The notes beneath the pieces were generated by a model. That model had not been told where the DNA came from and made no database searches. It saw only the letters and a program-made list of their open reading frames with translations. From the NCBI GenBank assembly GCA_016196755.1, contig JACPXC010000029.1:1-64000 (forward strand): a stretch of 64,000 bases of DNA, in the 5' to 3' direction. The translations under genes and the position numbers were made by a program. How positions within the stretch are numbered: position 1 is the first letter of the stretch; every line of letters begins with the position of its first letter. This stretch comes from Elusimicrobiota bacterium (GTDB taxonomy: Bacteria > Elusimicrobiota > Elusimicrobia > UBA1565). This document shows positions 3,346 to 16,598 of the stretch, in pieces.

Positions 3346-4620
3346 ATGGGCCGCACCTTTTCCGTCATCTTAGCCGCAGCGCTGGTCCTCGGGACGCCCG
3401 GCAGCCATGCCGCGGCACAGACCGTGGCGCGCTCGGTCCCCGGCACGGTCGTCGTGCCGGCGGCCCCCATGGCCGCGGCTTACGGCGCGGCCGCCGCCCC
3501 GCTGTCCTCTCCGCTGGGCGCTTCCGCCCTTCCCGGCTCCTCGGTCCTTCCCTCGGCCGCCACGTTTTCCCCGCGCGCGGCGGCGGCCGCCCCTGCCGCC
3601 GTAGCCGCGCCGGTTGCCGTTTCCCAGCCGGCGATTGCCGTCCAAACGGCCATCTTGTCCGCCGTCGCCGCCGAACGGACGCTGGCGGCCGCCCCTAGCG
3701 CCGCGGCGCCGCTGGCCGCCGCGATGAAGAAGGGGGGCGCTCCCTCCGCTATCTCCTTCTCGGGCCTGCGCCGCATGTTCGACGGGGGCGGGGCGCGGCA
3801 GGACTCGGAGGGCGCGGGCGGCGTCTCCACGACACCTCGCGGGCCGGCCCGGCCCGCCCTGGGGGCCGCTCGCTCCGGGGCGCGCAACGGCATCTTCGAC
3901 TCGATGCCGGCGCCGCTGTCGCGGATTTCGAAAAGGCTCTCCGAGACTCCATGGTGGAAGAAGCTGATAGGCGGCACAGCGTTAGGGCTGGCCTTGTTCG
4001 TCGGGATGCCCGCGGCCTATCGCACCATGGACGACTACGGCAGCGCCGCGCCGTACGCCGGACTTCCCGACGATTTCCTGGTACGCGAGCGCCCCTTCGC
4101 GTGGACCGATTCCTTCTATATCAAGGCGGGAGATTTAAACTTCGGTCGCATCGACCAGGAGGTCTTCGCCTGGGGGAAATCCTTCCGCTTGACGGATTCG
4201 GACGGCAAGCATGTGGCCGAGGCCAAGGCCAAGGTGTTCACTTGGGCCTCCACCGTCGAGGTCTTCGACGCCCAGGGCCGAAAGATCGGCGAGATCAAGG
4301 AGGACATCCTCAAGTCTCTCTTCAAGGTCTACACGACCTACCACATCTACGACGCGCAGGGGAGGCTGGTAGCGGACTCGGAGAAGGCCGAGTGGTTCAA
4401 CACCGACATCACACTGCGGGCTCTGGACGGCCGCGTCGTCGCCACGCTCCATCGGCCGCGCCTTACCTGGCGGCCCACCGACCGGTGGCAGGTCGCCGTT
4501 AAGGACCCGGGCGCGGTCGACAAGCGTCTGCTCTCGATGATAGCGGCTTATAAGACCTCGGTGGACAATGACCGCGAGAGCGCCGAGCGCAGGCAGGCGG
4601 ACGACGATTCGAACGATTAA
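3346..4620 (+). CDS. exported LURP-one-related (YxjI/scramblase-like) protein with Ala/Pro-rich leader
   Basis: Of 424 aa, residues 1-25 are a signal peptide and residues 26-135 are almost entirely Ala, Pro, Val and Ser. A motif ISFSGLRRMFDGG follows at about 137-150, and a hydrophobic segment (GTALGLALFVGM) at about 207-225. The rest, from about 245, is a LURP-one/YxjI-like barrel with alternating strands such as RIDQEVFAWGKSFRLTDSDG and AEAKAKVFTWASTVEVFDA. That fold is related to Tubby and phospholipid scramblases, so a lipid-facing role is plausible; this is inference. GGAGG upstream of the ATG supports the start. A strong terminator follows. The leader and FDGG motif recur in the next gene. 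Confidence 0.65.
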   Translation: MGRTFSVILAAALVLGTPGSHAAAQTVARSVPGTVVVPAAPMAAAYGAAAAPLSSPLGASALPGSSVLPSAATFSPRAAAAAPAAVAAPVAVSQPAIAVQTAILSAVAAERTLAAAPSAAAPLAAAMKKGGAPSAISFSGLRRMFDGGGARQDSEGAGGVSTTPRGPARPALGAARSGARNGIFDSMPAPLSRISKRLSETPWWKKLIGGTALGLALFVGMPAAYRTMDDYGSAAPYAGLPDDFLVRERPFAWTDSFYIKAGDLNFGRIDQEVFAWGKSFRLTDSDGKHVAEAKAKVFTWASTVEVFDAQGRKIGEIKEDILKSLFKVYTTYHIYDAQGRLVADSEKAEWFNTDITLRALDGRVVATLHRPRLTWRPTDRWQVAVKDPGAVDKRLLSMIAAYKTSVDNDRESAERRQADDDSND

Positions 4621-4646
4621 ACGGCGCTTACCAGTTCGTCGAACTT

Positions 4647-4676
4647 GGGGCCCAGGAAAACCTGGGCCCCTTTTTT
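4647..4676 (+). terminator. rho-independent terminator
   Basis: Perfect 10-bp stem GGGGCCCAGG/CCTGGGCCCC with an AAAA loop, followed directly by six T. It separates the LURP-one-like gene from the giant membrane protein gene and argues against any start for the latter upstream of about 4700. Confidence 0.95.
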
Positions 4677-4750
4677 GGTGTGCCCAACCGAAGGCCCCAT
4701 GCAATGGAAGGCGCGCCGCGCCTACAATGATCTCCGTCGTCCGGAGGATC

Positions 4751-7700
4751 ATGAGCAACTTCCCGCTGAGCCGTCTCGTCGCCGCCGTCTTAGCTTGGGC
4801 GCTGGTCGTCACCGCCCCCGGCCTCGGCTCCTACGCCGCCGCCCAAGTCGTGGTGCGTTCCGGCCCCGGCACCGCCGTCGTCCCGACCGCCCCCGCCGGC
4901 GCCGCGCGCGGCGCCGCCGCCGTCCCGCTCTCGCCCTCCCTTGGAACCGCCGCCCTGCCCGGGGCCGCAAGCCTGCTCGCCCCCGCCGCGCTGACGCCCC
5001 GCGCGGCCTCGCTGACGCCCGCCGCCGCGCAGGCCGCTCCTGTCGCCGCCGCAGCCTCGCCCGTCGCCGCGCCGATTGCCGCCCCGACCCGCCTCTCTCC
5101 CGCGGCCCAGACGGTCTCCGTCGCCGACCGAGCGTTATCGCGAGGAAGCGCCGCCTCCGAGGTCTTGGTGGCGGCCGCCCAAGCCGCCGCGAAGGTCGCC
5201 CCCAACGCCACCGCTCCGCTGGCCGCCGCCTCCAAACTGGCCGGGGCGCCCTCCGCGTCCTCTTTCTCCGGCTTCCGCCTCGTCTTCGACGGCGGCGTGG
5301 TCTCGGGCGCGCAGTCCGGCTCCGTGCTCGCGGGCCAGCTCCCCGGTCGGGTCGTCAGCGGTCTCAACGCCGTAGCGCCCGAGCTGCCTGACGCGGAGGC
5401 AAACTCCGCGGTTCCGGCTCCGAATTCCGAAGTGAAGTCCGTCGAGCGTGCCGCGGCCCCCTACGAGGTGGTAGCACTCCTGGCGGCCGTGGGCGGCGCG
5501 GCGGCATATTTCTTGATACCGGTTCTGTTGCCCATGCTCCCGACCCTGCCGGTCTGGCTGGCGGCCAACCCCCTGCTCCTCAAGGGAGGCCTGATCGCCG
5601 CCGGCGTCGGCGTCGGGGCCGCCCTCTCGGAGTACCGCCTGCTGCTCGACTGGCCGTCCCAGCTCGCCCAGGGCGCGCTGTCGACCGGGAAGACGGCTTT
5701 CCGGTTCTGGGCCCGCTTCGGCCGCGTGTTCGCCTCGGTCCTGACCGCCTCCTCGATGGACGAAGCGATGAAGGCCGAGCTGCCGGCGGGCTTCTGGCGC
5801 TACCCCGTCCTGGCCTGGCCGGCCGTCTTGGTCGGCTACGCCTTCGCCCCGGTTCTTTTCGTCCTGGGCGGCGTCTATAAGGCGGTCGAGGTGCCGGTCC
5901 TGGCCGCCTTCCGCGGCCTGCGCCGCGTCGTCGTCGAGCTCCTGCCTTGGCTGGGCGACCTCTTGGACTTGGCGATCCGGTTCATCCGGAATTTCTTCCC
6001 CGCGCTCTGGCGCTTGATCACGCGCGGCGTCGCCATGGCGTTCTACACCGCCGCCGGCGGCGCCGTCGTCCTGGCCGCTCCGGTGTGGAACGGCGCCGTC
6101 TACGCCCGCTACGCGGTCGACGGCACCGGGAACCCGATGAAGCTATCCCAGGTCCCGGCCGTGGCCGGAATGCTCGTCGGCCGGCTGCTGGGGCTCGTCG
6201 CGGCGGGCGTCCTCGGCGTCGTCGGGGCCGCGGTCGGCCTCGTCGCCGGCCTGCCGCTGACCGTCACCGACGCCTTGCTCGGGATGCTGGCCCGCGTGTC
6301 GCCGGGCGGACGCCTCGACCGCGCCGACAAGCGCTGGACCGCGGCCCTCAAGGCCGCCGCCGACATGGCGGCGTTCACCTTGGTCATGCCAGGGCCGGCC
6401 TCCGGCGACGCGGCCAGCCTGCCGCGCGTCCTGGCCCGCGTGGGCGCCGCCGTCCCGGGCGCGCTCTACGCCCTGCCTCACGGCGTCTTCAGCGCCCTCG
6501 TCCTTTGGGTCGCCGGCTTGGCCGCGGCCCTCGGCTACGCCCGCGAAGCGGCGAAGGCCGAGCCGTGGGCGGCCGAGCCCCGCTCCAGCCGCGAGGACAA
6601 ACCGGCCGAGGAGATCACCGGCTCGCCGTGGGCGCCGATGGCGCTCGGCCTCGGCGGCCTGGCGGCGGGCTGGTATCTTGCCCCGCTCTCCCTGCCGCTG
6701 CTCGCGACCGCCGCTATCGCCCTCATCGGCGGCCTGGCGGGCCTCTCGCTGAGCCAGCCCGGCGTCTGGCTGGCGGCGCCCGCGGCGCTGGCCTCCGGGG
6801 CGCGGGCCGGCGGCGACGTATTCCGCCTCGGCGCGCGCTTGGGCTTGGCCGCGGATTCGACCCTGCGCGGCCGCCGGGTCGACCAGGCGCTGTTCAAAGC
6901 GGCGCCTGTCTCCTTGACGCAGTACCCCGTGCTGGCTTGGCCCGGCCTGCTTCTGGGCGCCGTGCTCGCCCCGCTGGGAGCCGTCGTCGGCGCCGCTGCC
7001 GCGGCGCTGGGCGTCCCGGCTGCGGCGGCTTGGCGCGCCGCGGTGGTCGTCCTCACCGCCGGAGTCATCCGGCGGATCCTGACCGGGCTAAAAAACGTCG
7101 CGGTCCACGGCCTCCCGTTCACGCTCGGGTTGGTCCTCGGTACGCTGTGGGGCGCCATCAAGGGCGCGGCCTTGAGCGCCTGGACCCTGGCCGTGACGGT
7201 CTGGCGCGCGGTGATCGCCCTCGCCGACGAGAATCCGTACCGGTATACGGGCCTCACCGGCTTGGCGACCAAGCGCCTGGTCCAGGCGCTCGGCGGCGTG
7301 GTCGGACTGGCGGCCGGCGTCGTCGGCGCGGCCGTGGGCCTGGTCTCATTCGCTCCCTCTGCTCTGACCGAGGGCCTGGCGCTCGGCCTCGAGTGGGCGG
7401 GAGCGAAGGGCGGCGTCCCGGCCTGGCTGCGGCGCTGGCGGCAGAACTTCCAGCGCGACCTGAACGACGGGGCGGGTCTGCGCCTGCTGACGCTGGCCTA
7501 TCCTTACGCGCAGAACGAATCCGGCCTCTGGCAGGGCGTTCTGCGGACCGTCAACACCGGGCTATACGCCCTCCTGTCGCCGCTCTGGTTCCCGGTCGCG
7601 GCGACGGCGATGTACGTCCGGGCGGCCTATCGCGCCTCGACCTCGCTGCAGCCCGCCGCCAAGGAGTGGAAGAAGATCAGGCTCGACTCGGCCCCGCGGT

Positions 7701-8857
7701 ACCGCCCCGACAGCTGGCTCATGGCGATCAATATGGAGGCCATGGACGCTTTCTATGGAACGGCCGGCTTCTGGTCGGCGGCCGGAGCGGCGCTCTCCTG
7801 GGCCGTGCTCCGTCGCGACGATACGATGCTGGGCTGGCCCCATGAGGCGCTGGCCTGGGCCGCCGGCATCGCGGCGGGGGCGTCCGGTGCCTTGGCCGGG
7901 GCCTTCGAATACCCGGCGCGCGGCGTCCTGGCCTTCATCAAGAAGTGGGCCCTCAAGCTCGTGCCGTACCTCGAGAGTCTCTTGAACGTCCTCAAGCGCA
8001 TCGCCCTGCGCATCTTCCCGTTCATGGGAGGCCTCATCGGGGGCGCCGCGCTGGGTGTGGTCGGCTCGGCGGCCTTCGGCGCCGTCCTGCTGGCCCGCCC
8101 TTGGTTCAAGTACGTCGTCGCCGAGAACTACGAGACCTCGAGCCTCGGCCGCTTCCTCGGCACGGCCGCCCTGCGCGCGGTCGCCGCCCTGGCGGGCGTG
8201 GGCTTCGGCGCGCTCGGCCTCGCCTTCGGGCTCCTGGCCGCGCTGCCGTACTCGGTGACCTTCATGGTGGCCACCGCCTTCGACTGGGGCGGCATCGGCG
8301 GAACCAGCGAGCGCTTCTTCCTGCACTGGAAGCGCGGCTCGCTGCCCGCCGAGATGAAGCGTTTGAGCAAGCTAACCGACTCCTTCGAGTTCTCGGAGAA
8401 GCGGGTCAACGGCGAACTCGACCCGATGGCGGGCTGGATCCGGCTCGGGATGGTGTTCGCGGCGACCTTCGCCGCGGCCCTGGCCGCGACGATCGCCGGA
8501 CTGGTGGCCTACGGGCGCTCGATCCTGGCCGCGGCGACGGCGACCCGGACCGGCGCCGAACCTCCGGCATGGAGCGGCCCGAGCGCGTCGGTCATCAGCG
8601 GCTCGGTCCGCGACGGCGCCAAGTATGGGGGCGGCATCGGCGGCTGGGTCGGCGGCCTGGCGGGAATCGTGCTGGTCGCGATGATCGCGTTCAGCGCCGT
8701 GCCCTCGTTCCTGCTGGCGGCCGCGCCGCTGGGCGTCATCGGGCCGCTGCTTCTCGGCGCCCCGCTCGGCTGGCTGGCGGGGGTCGTCGTCGGGACGGCG
8801 CTCGGCGCCTTGACCGGGATGCTGCTTTGGCTGGACCGGCTGGTCAGGGCTTCTTGA
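4751..8857 (+). CDS. giant Gly/Ala-rich membrane protein with three internal repeats
   Basis: About 1368 aa. I chose the ATG at 4751 because GGAGG lies at 4743-4747 (spacing only 3 nt) and a TACAAT box at 4723-4728 would start transcription between the two; the in-frame ATG at 4727 overlaps that box. After a signal peptide comes an Ala/Pro-rich leader with the SFSG...FDGG motif at about 172-182, shared with the preceding gene. From about residue 235 the protein is many Gly/Ala-rich hydrophobic segments arranged as three related units of about 350 residues: near 235-610, 625-960 and 970-1350. YPVLAWP recurs in units 1 and 2 and a variant in unit 3. No family is recognised. It overlaps the convergent lipoprotein gene by 14 bp. 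Confidence 0.65.
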   Translation: MSNFPLSRLVAAVLAWALVVTAPGLGSYAAAQVVVRSGPGTAVVPTAPAGAARGAAAVPLSPSLGTAALPGAASLLAPAALTPRAASLTPAAAQAAPVAAAASPVAAPIAAPTRLSPAAQTVSVADRALSRGSAASEVLVAAAQAAAKVAPNATAPLAAASKLAGAPSASSFSGFRLVFDGGVVSGAQSGSVLAGQLPGRVVSGLNAVAPELPDAEANSAVPAPNSEVKSVERAAAPYEVVALLAAVGGAAAYFLIPVLLPMLPTLPVWLAANPLLLKGGLIAAGVGVGAALSEYRLLLDWPSQLAQGALSTGKTAFRFWARFGRVFASVLTASSMDEAMKAELPAGFWRYPVLAWPAVLVGYAFAPVLFVLGGVYKAVEVPVLAAFRGLRRVVVELLPWLGDLLDLAIRFIRNFFPALWRLITRGVAMAFYTAAGGAVVLAAPVWNGAVYARYAVDGTGNPMKLSQVPAVAGMLVGRLLGLVAAGVLGVVGAAVGLVAGLPLTVTDALLGMLARVSPGGRLDRADKRWTAALKAAADMAAFTLVMPGPASGDAASLPRVLARVGAAVPGALYALPHGVFSALVLWVAGLAAALGYAREAAKAEPWAAEPRSSREDKPAEEITGSPWAPMALGLGGLAAGWYLAPLSLPLLATAAIALIGGLAGLSLSQPGVWLAAPAALASGARAGGDVFRLGARLGLAADSTLRGRRVDQALFKAAPVSLTQYPVLAWPGLLLGAVLAPLGAVVGAAAAALGVPAAAAWRAAVVVLTAGVIRRILTGLKNVAVHGLPFTLGLVLGTLWGAIKGAALSAWTLAVTVWRAVIALADENPYRYTGLTGLATKRLVQALGGVVGLAAGVVGAAVGLVSFAPSALTEGLALGLEWAGAKGGVPAWLRRWRQNFQRDLNDGAGLRLLTLAYPYAQNESGLWQGVLRTVNTGLYALLSPLWFPVAATAMYVRAAYRASTSLQPAAKEWKKIRLDSAPRYRPDSWLMAINMEAMDAFYGTAGFWSAAGAALSWAVLRRDDTMLGWPHEALAWAAGIAAGASGALAGAFEYPARGVLAFIKKWALKLVPYLESLLNVLKRIALRIFPFMGGLIGGAALGVVGSAAFGAVLLARPWFKYVVAENYETSSLGRFLGTAALRAVAALAGVGFGALGLAFGLLAALPYSVTFMVATAFDWGGIGGTSERFFLHWKRGSLPAEMKRLSKLTDSFEFSEKRVNGELDPMAGWIRLGMVFAATFAAALAATIAGLVAYGRSILAAATATRTGAEPPAWSGPSASVISGSVRDGAKYGGGIGGWVGGLAGIVLVAMIAFSAVPSFLLAAAPLGVIGPLLLGAPLGWLAGVVVGTALGALTGMLLWLDRLVRAS
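5123..5176 (+). repeat. 54-bp in-gene repeat, copy A
   Basis: About 91% identical (5 mismatches) to the reverse complement of 15374-15427. It lies in the low-complexity leader of the giant membrane protein and encodes ADRALSRGSAASE in frame. Its length is a multiple of three, so insertion or loss keeps the frame. Confidence 0.75.
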
Positions 8858-13871: not shown

Positions 13872-15158
13872 ATGAGAATCCGCAAGGGACTCGAAGGGAT
13901 GCTGGTCGCGGCGCTCTTGGCGCTGTCGGGTGCGGCCTGCGCGGCGCAGAACGAGATCTCGAAGATCGTGCTGTTCGCGCCGGGGACGCCGCCCGAGGTG
14001 CGGGCGGCGAAGATCGAGGCGGCCGGCGGGCGGGTCAAGCGCCAGCTCGACCTGGTCGACGGCGTCGAGGCGGTCTTTCCGGCCTCGGAGTCCGCCGTCC
14101 TCGCCATGGAGAAGGGGACGCCGCTGCCCGCCGAGCAGGGAGCCGGCGGCCTTTCCGAAGGCCGCGACGGCGTCTCCGGCATCGAAAGCAACGAGAGGGA
14201 GAACGTGCTCGAGCAGCGCGCGCCCTCCTTCGGTTCCTTCCCCTCGGTGCGCGACTTCCTCAATAGGGGAGGCGCGGAGGCGCCGGCGGTCGGCGGCGTC
14301 CTGCTCGGCGCCGAGGACGCCGAGCCGGTCATCCCCTGGGGCGTTACGGCCGTGAAGGCGCCCGACCTCTGGGCACGGAGCAAGGGCCGCGGGGTGCGGA
14401 TCGGGATCATCGACACCGGCATCGACGGCGAGCACGCGGCCCTCAAGGAGAACTATAGAGGAGGCTACAACGCGGTCACGGAGGACGGCGCTCCGACCGA
14501 CGACCACGGCCACGGCACCCACGTGGCGGGGACGGTGGCCGCCAACAGCCGCGAGGTCATCGGCGTGGCGCCGGAGGCCTCGCTCTACTCGATCAAGTCG
14601 ATCGACTCGCGGGGCCAGGCCGCCACGGCCGACATCATCAAGGGCCTGGAGTGGGCGGTCAAGAACAAGCTGCAGGTGGTCAACATGAGCCTCCGCAAGC
14701 CCCATACCGAGGCGCTGGAGCTGGCCGTGGCCAGGACCCTGGCGGCGGGCGTCATCATCGTGGCCGCGGCCGGCAACGGCAGCGGCGCGGCGGTCGAGGC
14801 GCCGGCACGCTACGCCGGGGTCATCGCCGTCAGCGCCAGCAACGCCGACGGCGGCCTGGCGGACTTCTCGAACAAGGGGCCCGAGGTCGCCTTCATCGCC
14901 CCGGGCGCGGAGGTCGTCTCGACGGCCATGGGCGGCGGCGTCACCACCAAGTCGGGCACCTCGATGGCGGCGCCGCACGTCGCCGGTCTCGTGGCCCTGG
15001 CGATCGGCCTCGGCCATGCCGACGGCGCGTCGGTCCGCCGCGCGCTCGACGGGGCCGCGGCGCCCCTGCCCGGAGTCACCGAGGAGGGTGGGCAGGGCGG
15101 CGGCATGATCGACGCCGGCCGCATCGCCGCGCCGCGGGGCGGAGCCCGCGCCCGCTAG
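13872..15158 (+). CDS. secreted subtilisin-like serine protease (S8)
   Basis: The 428-aa preproprotein has a signal peptide, an inhibitor-I9-like prodomain (EISKIVLFAPG...AAGGRVKRQLDLVDGVEAVFP) and a complete S8 catalytic domain: Asp in GIIDTGIDG (about 180), His in DDHGHGTHVAGT (about 214), oxyanion Asn in AAAGNGS (about 300) and Ser in SGTSMAAPHVAGL (about 362). GGAGG at 13862-13866 with 5-nt spacing fixes the ATG. A paralogue lies directly downstream; both begin MRIRKGL, so they probably arose by tandem duplication. It should be a secreted, self-processing endopeptidase. Confidence 0.93.
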   Translation: MRIRKGLEGMLVAALLALSGAACAAQNEISKIVLFAPGTPPEVRAAKIEAAGGRVKRQLDLVDGVEAVFPASESAVLAMEKGTPLPAEQGAGGLSEGRDGVSGIESNERENVLEQRAPSFGSFPSVRDFLNRGGAEAPAVGGVLLGAEDAEPVIPWGVTAVKAPDLWARSKGRGVRIGIIDTGIDGEHAALKENYRGGYNAVTEDGAPTDDHGHGTHVAGTVAANSREVIGVAPEASLYSIKSIDSRGQAATADIIKGLEWAVKNKLQVVNMSLRKPHTEALELAVARTLAAGVIIVAAAGNGSGAAVEAPARYAGVIAVSASNADGGLADFSNKGPEVAFIAPGAEVVSTAMGGGVTTKSGTSMAAPHVAGLVALAIGLGHADGASVRRALDGAAAPLPGVTEEGGQGGGMIDAGRIAAPRGGARAR

Positions 15159-15305: not shown

Positions 15306-16598
15306 ATGAGGATTCGAAAAGGGCTCTTCGGGGTGTTGGCCGCGGCGGTCTTAGCGACGGCGGTGGCGGCGCAGGCCGCCAGCAATGCCTCGGAGGCGGC
15401 ACTTCCTCGCGATAGCGCTCGGTCGGCTGCCGCGAAGGAAGTCTCCAAGATCGTCATGTTCGAGGCCGGCGTCTCGAAAGAGGCGCGCGCCGAGGCCATC
15501 CGCCAGGCCGGGGGCCGCGTGGTCCGCGATCTGGCCCTGGTGGGCGGCGTCGAGGCCGTGTTCCCGCCGGTCCGGACCCGCTTGGCGTCCTTCTCCGCGT
15601 CGACCGTCGAGGGCGGCGCCGAGGCTCTGGCCAAGGGCCGGCGCGGCGTGGCCGAGATCGAGCTCAACGAGGAGCAGTACTGGCTGGTCCAGCTCTCCCC
15701 GGCCTTCGGCGCCTTCCCCGCGGTCGGCGAGTTCCTGCGCAAGGGCGCGGTCGGGGCTCCGGCCATCGGCCAGGAGGAGGCCAAGTCCGAGGAGGCCGGC
15801 GTGCCCTGGGGCGTGACGCGCGTCAACGCCCAGGCCGCCTGGGGCCGCTCGCGCGGCGGGCGCGGCGTCCGGGTCGGCGTGATCGACACCGGGATCGACT
15901 GCTCGCACGAGGCTCTCAAGGCCAACTGCAAAAGCGGCTTCAACACCGCCGAAGAAGGGGGCTCTCCGGCCGACGACCACGGCCATGGCACCCACGTGGC
16001 CGGCACGATAGCCGCGGCCAGCCCCGAGGTCGTCGGCGTGGCCCCGGAGTCCTCGGTCTTCCCGATCAAGGTGCTCAACGCCCAGGGCCGCGGCACCACG
16101 GCCAACATCATCAAGGGCCTTGAATGGGCGGTGGAGAACCGCATGCAGATCGTCAACATGAGCCTGGGCGGCGGCGCCAGCGAGGCCCTGGAACTGGCCA
16201 TCCGCAAGACCCTCGAGGCCGGCATCGTCATCGTGGCGGCCTCGGGCAACAACCCCAACGCCGGGGTCTCGGCTCCGGGCCGCTACCCGGGCGTAATCGC
16301 CGTCAGCGCCAGCGCCTCCGACGACTCCCTGGCGGGCTTCTCCAGCGTGGGGCCCGAGGTGGCCTTCATCGCCCCCGGCCAGGACGTGGTGTCGACCCTC
16401 AAGGGCGGCGGGACCGGGCCCAAGTCTGGCACCTCGATGGCTACCCCGCACGTGGCCGGCCTGGCCGCGTTGGCCATCGCCATGGGCAAGCAGGGCCCGG
16501 CCGCCGTCCGCCAGGCCCTGACCCGGGCGGCCAAGCCGCTCGAGGGTCTGGAGGGCCCCCAGCAGGGCGCCGGCATGATCGACGCCTCCCGCCTGTAG
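15306..16598 (+). CDS. secreted subtilisin-like serine protease (S8), paralogue
   Basis: This 430-aa protein has the same plan as its upstream neighbour: signal peptide, I9-like prodomain (VSKIVMFEAGVSKEARAEAI) and S8 domain with Asp in GVIDTGIDC (about 195), His in DDHGHGTHVAGT (about 227), Asn in AASGNNP and Ser in SGTSMATPHVAGL (about 374). Two Cys near the catalytic Asp (DCSHEALKANCKS) may form a disulfide absent from the paralogue. AAGGAGG before the ATG fixes the start. Between signal peptide and prodomain is a 54-bp repeat found in inverted orientation in the giant membrane protein gene. Confidence 0.93.
   Translation: MRIRKGLFGVLAAAVLATAVAAQAASNASEAALPRDSARSAAAKEVSKIVMFEAGVSKEARAEAIRQAGGRVVRDLALVGGVEAVFPPVRTRLASFSASTVEGGAEALAKGRRGVAEIELNEEQYWLVQLSPAFGAFPAVGEFLRKGAVGAPAIGQEEAKSEEAGVPWGVTRVNAQAAWGRSRGGRGVRVGVIDTGIDCSHEALKANCKSGFNTAEEGGSPADDHGHGTHVAGTIAAASPEVVGVAPESSVFPIKVLNAQGRGTTANIIKGLEWAVENRMQIVNMSLGGGASEALELAIRKTLEAGIVIVAASGNNPNAGVSAPGRYPGVIAVSASASDDSLAGFSSVGPEVAFIAPGQDVVSTLKGGGTGPKSGTSMATPHVAGLAALAIAMGKQGPAAVRQALTRAAKPLEGLEGPQQGAGMIDASRL
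15374..15427 (-). repeat. 54-bp in-gene repeat, copy B
   Basis: Inverted copy of 5123-5176 with 5 mismatches. In the protease it reads as SNASEAALPRDSARSA between signal peptide and prodomain, a place where extra residues are tolerated. The complementary strand is also open here. Confidence 0.75.

Follow-up and report, generated by a model that had tools for sequence, protein, structure and literature searches.

Selfish DNA inside unbroken bacterial genes is best documented in Rickettsia, a bacterium with a reduced genome. The Rickettsia palindromic elements (RPEs) are described as short palindromic repeats that have inserted in frame into numerous protein genes, conserved ones among them, and that the proteins tolerate (PMC2229807, PMC3767692); their length is given as about 100-150 bp (PMC3767692). 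The CGTC REPs, which include RPE-4, RPE-6 and dRS3, are hairpins that are in some cases intragenic and that have no dedicated transposase; they are described as a single stem of 8-9 bp with CGTC at its foot and a short tail, REPs in general as mostly intergenic, and the GTAG REPs and REPINs as high-copy short hairpins, some of which are intragenic (PMC3733652). The MITE-like repeats of Neisseria, enterobacteria and Yersinia (Correia/NEMIS, ERIC and RU-2) are small, contain open frames and sometimes form in-frame fusions with genes (PMC2229807).

The element described in the present work, two copies of which lie in a window of 64,000 nucleotides from an Elusimicrobiota genome (the window being the whole stretch of DNA that was analysed), is a new family showing a known kind of behaviour. 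An earlier interpretation made from the letters alone (the sequence-only reading) had likened the repeat to RPEs. The analogy holds for behaviour, with in-frame insertion into otherwise conserved genes encountered here in IleS, ArgS, GlgA and SMC, but it does not extend to sequence, structure or phylum, and the element does not belong to that family: an RPE is a long hairpin of about 100-150 bp with inverted ends, whereas the Elusimicrobiota element is 51-54 bp long, has two separate hairpins and a tandem G-A step, carries no CGTC tag and belongs to another phylum. It likewise has neither the tag nor the single-stem architecture of the CGTC REPs. The GTAG REPs and REPINs differ from it in being mostly intergenic, in their GTAG tag and in having a RAYT gene flanked by copies, of which none was found for the element; GTAG was not found at the foot of its hairpins, where the bases are CGAC/TGAC and AAGT/AAAT. 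The Correia/NEMIS, ERIC and RU-2 repeats exceed it in size and in most cases are bounded by terminal inverted repeats and flanked by target duplications. Neither feature is seen in the element: its left end, CGACC, is not an inverted repeat of its right end, GCGGC, and at the two empty sites resolved at the DNA level the only shared bases are a C or GGC, with no further duplication of the target. No account of such an element in Elusimicrobiota was found in a literature search that covered subscription journals little. Rfam covariance models applied to six loci, with E up to 1, gave no match at the element; the four sub-threshold matches that were obtained are unrelated, and one of them (RF02133, at 1380-1460 of L026) stops before the copy at approximately 1501-1554.

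Our main reading, to which we assign a probability of roughly 0.8, is that the repeat is a small non-autonomous mobile DNA element of Elusimicrobiota genomes whose main habitat is protein genes. This reading is based on about 70 near-identical copies in both orientations, on two covarying hairpins carried on one strand, on clean 51-bp gains relative to orthologues, on an abundance which is patchy and lineage-specific, and on the preservation of the reading frame. The 17-residue linker added to host proteins, some of them essential enzymes, looks harmless, the copies lying almost always in coding genes whose frame is unbroken.

Positions 5123-5176 of the plus strand and the reverse complement of 15374-15427 are identical at 49 of 54 positions and lie on opposite strands, as the sequence-only reading had reported. 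The match is real, but the ends are better set at 51 bp (5125-5175 and 15375-15425), as judged from column conservation over 70 copies and from the empty sites in IleS and ArgS. Copy A, at 5125-5175 on the plus strand, is read in the sense frame as ADRALSRGSAASEVLVAA within a large exported or membrane protein (plus-strand ORF 4568-8857, with a likely start near 4751 and no Pfam match). Its first hairpin, H1, occupies 5128-5145 on the plus strand (CC-GA-GCG-TTAT-CGC-GA-GG, identified from covariation), and its second, H2, occupies 5150-5175 on the same strand (GCCGCCTCC...GGTGGCGGC), with the 3' arm forming the right end of the element. Copy B, at 15375-15425 on the minus strand, has H1 at 15405-15422 and H2 at 15375-15400, both on the minus strand, and is read by its host gene from the plus strand as AASNASEAALPRDSARS; the host is a subtilase (PF00082; 15306-16598, plus strand), in which the copy follows the signal peptide and precedes the propeptide. 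The translations given earlier for these two ORFs, ADRALSRGSAASE and SEAALPRDSARS, are correct. A neighbouring subtilase paralogue at 13872-15158 on the plus strand is without the insert, its matching empty site lies near 13948/13949, and the gain relative to it amounts to about 20 residues, 17 of which are the element. The two tandem paralogues, one with the element and the other without, are approximately 55% identical.

A 40-base pattern derived from both copies, allowing up to 3 mismatches, occurs at exactly 2 places in the window and at none in 100 shuffles. Both copies encode Ala/Ser-rich peptides, as would a conserved protein motif or domain common to the two proteins by descent or convergence, but such a motif is extremely improbable, since the copies are read from opposite strands and it is therefore the DNA that is shared and not the peptide; the antisense copies refute a shared motif, and the same DNA is present within IleS, ArgS, DnaG, GlgA, MurD and other genes. 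The source genome comprises 4.59 Mb in 67 contigs (the window is on contig C60), and it contains 70 copies, 37 forward and 33 reverse, of a 26-base pattern when at most 3 mismatches are allowed, compared to 0 and 1 matches for the reversed control pattern. A chance match of the two window copies was rejected on the basis of the shuffles and of this control. The covariance model R1, which was built from 18 copies in relatives, finds 72 copies in the genome at E<=0.01, two of which score below the rest, and BLAST at E<=10 gives at least 43 matches, with 40 of its 127 candidates scored. The sequence-only reading had staked its interpretation on the existence of further copies, and about 70 more were found on the two strands; 70 were examined in detail, and their orientation is mixed over short distances.

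Comparison with orthologues locates the insertions precisely. In the IleS of the source genome 17 extra residues follow VAFGPG, and these are absent from all 12 genomes in which the orthologue extends across that point (19 genomes have a match, and the 7 outside this count are the source genome, G013 with a partial match, and five with unaligned distant homologues); at the DNA level G001 reads CCGGGCGGCGTCGAG where the source genome has a 51-bp gain. In ArgS exactly the 17 residues of the insert are absent in 5 of 5 relatives, and in GlgA the insert is without counterpart in solved homologues. The orthologues of the copy A membrane protein in G002 and G004 are also without the element, at an empty point which is uncertain because the low-complexity, Ala/Pro-rich sequence makes the alignment doubtful. 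The segment is thus not ordinary conserved protein sequence, the outcome that the sequence-only reading had named as fatal to its proposal, as the orthologue check it suggested yields empty sites at precise points in IleS and ArgS. In SMC the copy of the source genome is antisense and follows VEFRK, and that of G007 is sense and lies slightly beyond this point; the opposite orientations at points a few residues apart imply independent insertions, so that the same tail has been hit twice. Other hosts identified by Pfam include DnaG, MurD, PolyA_pol, a histidine kinase, an amidohydrolase, an FtsX permease, a ketoacyl-synthase/KR protein, and radical SAM and SPOR proteins, and the element is not limited to exported proteins. 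At L018 the gene that hosts the copy at 1501-1560 is 6-phosphogluconolactonase-like; its domain match ends at the insert, and the motif expected to come next is missing. This insertion may have inactivated the host gene, or sequence may have been lost at insertion, and the case counts against neutrality. Structure prediction of the ArgS and IleS segments gave mean pLDDT values of 51 and 48 and was set aside.

The unit of the element is 51 bp, CGACC...GCGGC, and its flanks are variable; of the 70 copies, all have C at position 2 and 69 have C at position 52. On one strand it consists of H1, CC-GA-GCG-NTAN-CGC-GA-GG, in which the GA steps form tandem G·A pairs, followed by AAGT and then by H2, GCCGC...GCGGC, whose 3' arm closes the element. 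H1 and H2 covary between species. Changes on both sides are found in 5 of 15 pairs among 18 aligned copies and in 9 of 15 pairs among 74 copies from named loci and genomes; in the latter alignment, which was fitted to the structure, the 55 double-change cells exceed the mean of 23.1 obtained in shuffles, and pairing is found in 90.7% of cells, compared to at most 55.3% with slid partners. The tandem G-A step is GA/GA in 72 of the 74 copies and GC/GC in 2, and is never mixed, as expected of paired tandem G-A. Single-sequence folding of the element strand barely improves on shuffles (z from -0.4 to -2.1), so that the evidence for the hairpins is their covariation and not their folding energy. 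Among the 74 copies the length is 54 in 47, 51 in 13, 55 in 5 and 57 in 4, with other lengths seen once or twice, and it is a multiple of three in 65. Tandem copies are spaced at 51 bp in the source genome and at 54 bp in one relative, as would follow from use of the right end as a target. At L065 (G007), on the minus strand near 1007-1060, two successive H1 hairpins 26 nt apart precede H2, from which it appears that H1 may be a module able to duplicate. Three copies in G007 (C51:7172, C139:13421 and C144:16541) share the variant GAAGTGTGACC, which could be the same double-H1 arrangement.

The copies of the source genome sit in genes in proportion to coding density: 66 of 70 are in an ORF with flanks that score as coding under a codon model trained on the window, and the coding share of the window under the same kind of model is 0.936. 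Both flanks are clearly coding for 43 copies, and 42 of these use just two frames, with 17 in the sense frame (DRALSRGSAASEALGA), 25 in a single antisense frame (AAPKASEAALPRDSARS) and 1 (L201) in another; 20 of the 23 one-sided copies are also in the locked frames and 3 are in others. Compared to equal use of 2 of 6 frames, 42 of 43 has P = 3e-19. The sequence-only reading had described the repeat as divisible by three in length, in frame, placed in tolerant linkers and palindromic, in the sense of hairpin-forming, all of which agrees with these data; its statement that both strands are open needs the correction that, in the source genome, not all six frames are open, one antisense frame usually containing a stop codon when the loop has its common base. 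It is a real, if minority, possibility that the frame-locking arises at insertion and not from later selection, because the enzyme prefers a codon-phased site: when insertions are simulated with a target profile derived from the flanks alone, a fraction of 0.63-0.68 falls in the two frames that are used, and 0.75-0.80 once the stop-bearing frame is removed. Against this, the observed 42 of 43 has P = 1e-6 relative to the profile from all copies (0.68), or 9e-4 after the stop-bearing antisense frame is dropped, values obtained with a profile that is partly circular, being taken from the same copies, and with three tandem pairs that are not independent. The frame-locking reads as targeting plus the stop codon plus some selection, and selection probably adds to the effect of the first two; the element offers a test of whether frame choice stems from targeting or from selection. 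Frames are less locked in the named relatives than in the source genome, the 32 two-sided copies there being distributed as +2 9, +1 8, -0 7, -2 6, -1 1 and +0 1, with codon models trained on few loci. The flanks of the 42 coding copies are richer in Ala+Pro than the rest of their hosts (0.39 vs 0.27) and poorer in hydrophobic residues (0.21 vs 0.28).

Abundance is patchy. A match at E<=0.01 is present in 35 of 57 related genomes (the source genome included), at 1 to 72 copies each, the relatives alone having 0 to 42; the genomes of its own genus have 72, 1 and 17 copies, and two other genera show 41 vs 0 and 11 vs 0 copies, one of the zero genomes being only 78% complete. A scan of the phylum, using at most the best 18 candidates per genome, gives a match at E<=1e-4 in at least 32 of 294 genomes, of which 24 belong to the order, 7 to the class but not the order, and 1 to the phylum but not the class. 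An exact degenerate pattern searched in one genome per species, over 84,980 species, finds 58 stretches, 56 of which are titled Elusimicrobia or Elusimicrobiota and 2 only "bacterium", which does not bear out membership in the Rickettsiales. No match to the element was found in viral contigs or, by blastn, in plasmids. At L080, L085, L101, L105, L133 and L172 the copy flanks are common to loci of several genomes, and the copies at these loci most likely represent a single old insertion that was vertically inherited.

The extreme conservation and the covariation of H1 are also what one would look for in a functional DNA or RNA site which has spread for its own use, in chromosome organisation, RNA-protein binding or post-transcriptional control, and is not a selfish insert. 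We consider such a site very unlikely, given the range of 0 to 72 copies among close relatives (72, 1 and 17 within one genus), the precise insertion into unrelated genes, and the 17 sense vs 25 antisense two-sided copies, which speak against a strand-specific role in mRNA. A role at the level of mRNA was set aside on these similar sense and antisense numbers.

Under the mobile-element reading, a putative trans-acting enzyme would recognise the folded single strand, with H1 as the invariant recognition part, and would join the element beside a GC-rich site similar to the GCGGC of its own right end; GCCGC, which forms the 5' arm of H2, could pair with either this right end or the left target. 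The right end GCGGC, which is able to pair with the GCCGC arm, is conserved in nearly all copies, and the left flank is exactly GCGGC in only 22 of 70, with other left flanks often found in relatives. Insertions in linkers and tails would be tolerated, and would hence persist, because of the multiple-of-three length and the Ala/Ser/Gly-rich linker encoded in the commonest frame on each strand. No dedicated transposase was found beside the copies in a search that covered other enzyme classes to a limited extent, and none of the 14 largest ORF clusters around the copies stood out by eye as a recurring transposase-like gene, the clusters consisting of ordinary families, antisense ORFs and one orthologous region common to six loci. 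A recurrent neighbouring gene as the driver was rejected on this basis.

The movement of short hairpin elements by RAYTs has precedents (PMC3733652, PMC8266576). The source genome has 12 Y1_Tnp (PF01797) matches, 11 of them above the cut-off, and Y1 transposases are found in 44 of the 57 genomes of the order, so that mobilisation by a resident Y1 tyrosine transposase (RAYT), in the manner of REP/REPIN-type elements, must be weighed. This explanation is unlikely: the element has no GTAG tag and its copies are of mixed orientation over short distances, no convincing copy lies near 40 Y1 loci (11 of the 12 in the source genome and 29 in relatives), the best scores being 8.7 and 10.4 bits, and copies are present without any Y1_Tnp match in G008 (37), G048 (16), G033 (9), G042 (9), G043 (8) and G046 (4), of which G008, G033 and G043 are 92-97% complete and G048, G046 and G042 only 72-80%. 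Y1/RAYT transposases thus look unnecessary for the element, and from the Y1 loci and the six Y1-free genomes we propose that its single-strand hairpin is recognised by another, putative enzyme. The Y1_Tnp matches of the source genome (L089-L096 and L211-L213) are mostly frames of about 230-390 aa that are not linked to the element. Non-autonomous elements derived from IS200/IS605 have hairpins at both ends, and guide sequences in IS200/IS605 elements pair with the target. The element may resemble them in having hairpins at both ends and a guide-target pairing, but by co-occurrence it does not need a Y1 gene, no autonomous parent was found, and no replication-strand orientation bias is apparent.

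The unrelated family described here does in large, GC-rich genomes of uncultured Elusimicrobiota, at full coding density and with a strong preference for certain frames, what RPEs do in Rickettsia. It provides dozens of natural experiments on the tolerance of a 17-residue insert in essential enzymes, and it is a lead to a putative new mobilising enzyme. A bolder proposal, which we put forward tentatively and hold to be on balance doubtful, is that the gene interior is the normal habitat of the element, that its sequence is adapted for its wobble positions to coincide with those of the host on either strand and for it to encode a soluble Ala/Ser-rich linker, and that it is moved by a putative non-Y1 enzyme which reads a GCGGC-like site together with the tandem-G-A hairpin; the element would then be a natural inserter of peptides in frame. 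At L198 and L204, whose hosts are Ala/Pro-rich exported proteins, partial remnants of a second copy (SEAVGA and TASEVMGAA) lie near an intact or altered copy, which suggests decay of the element into new protein sequence.
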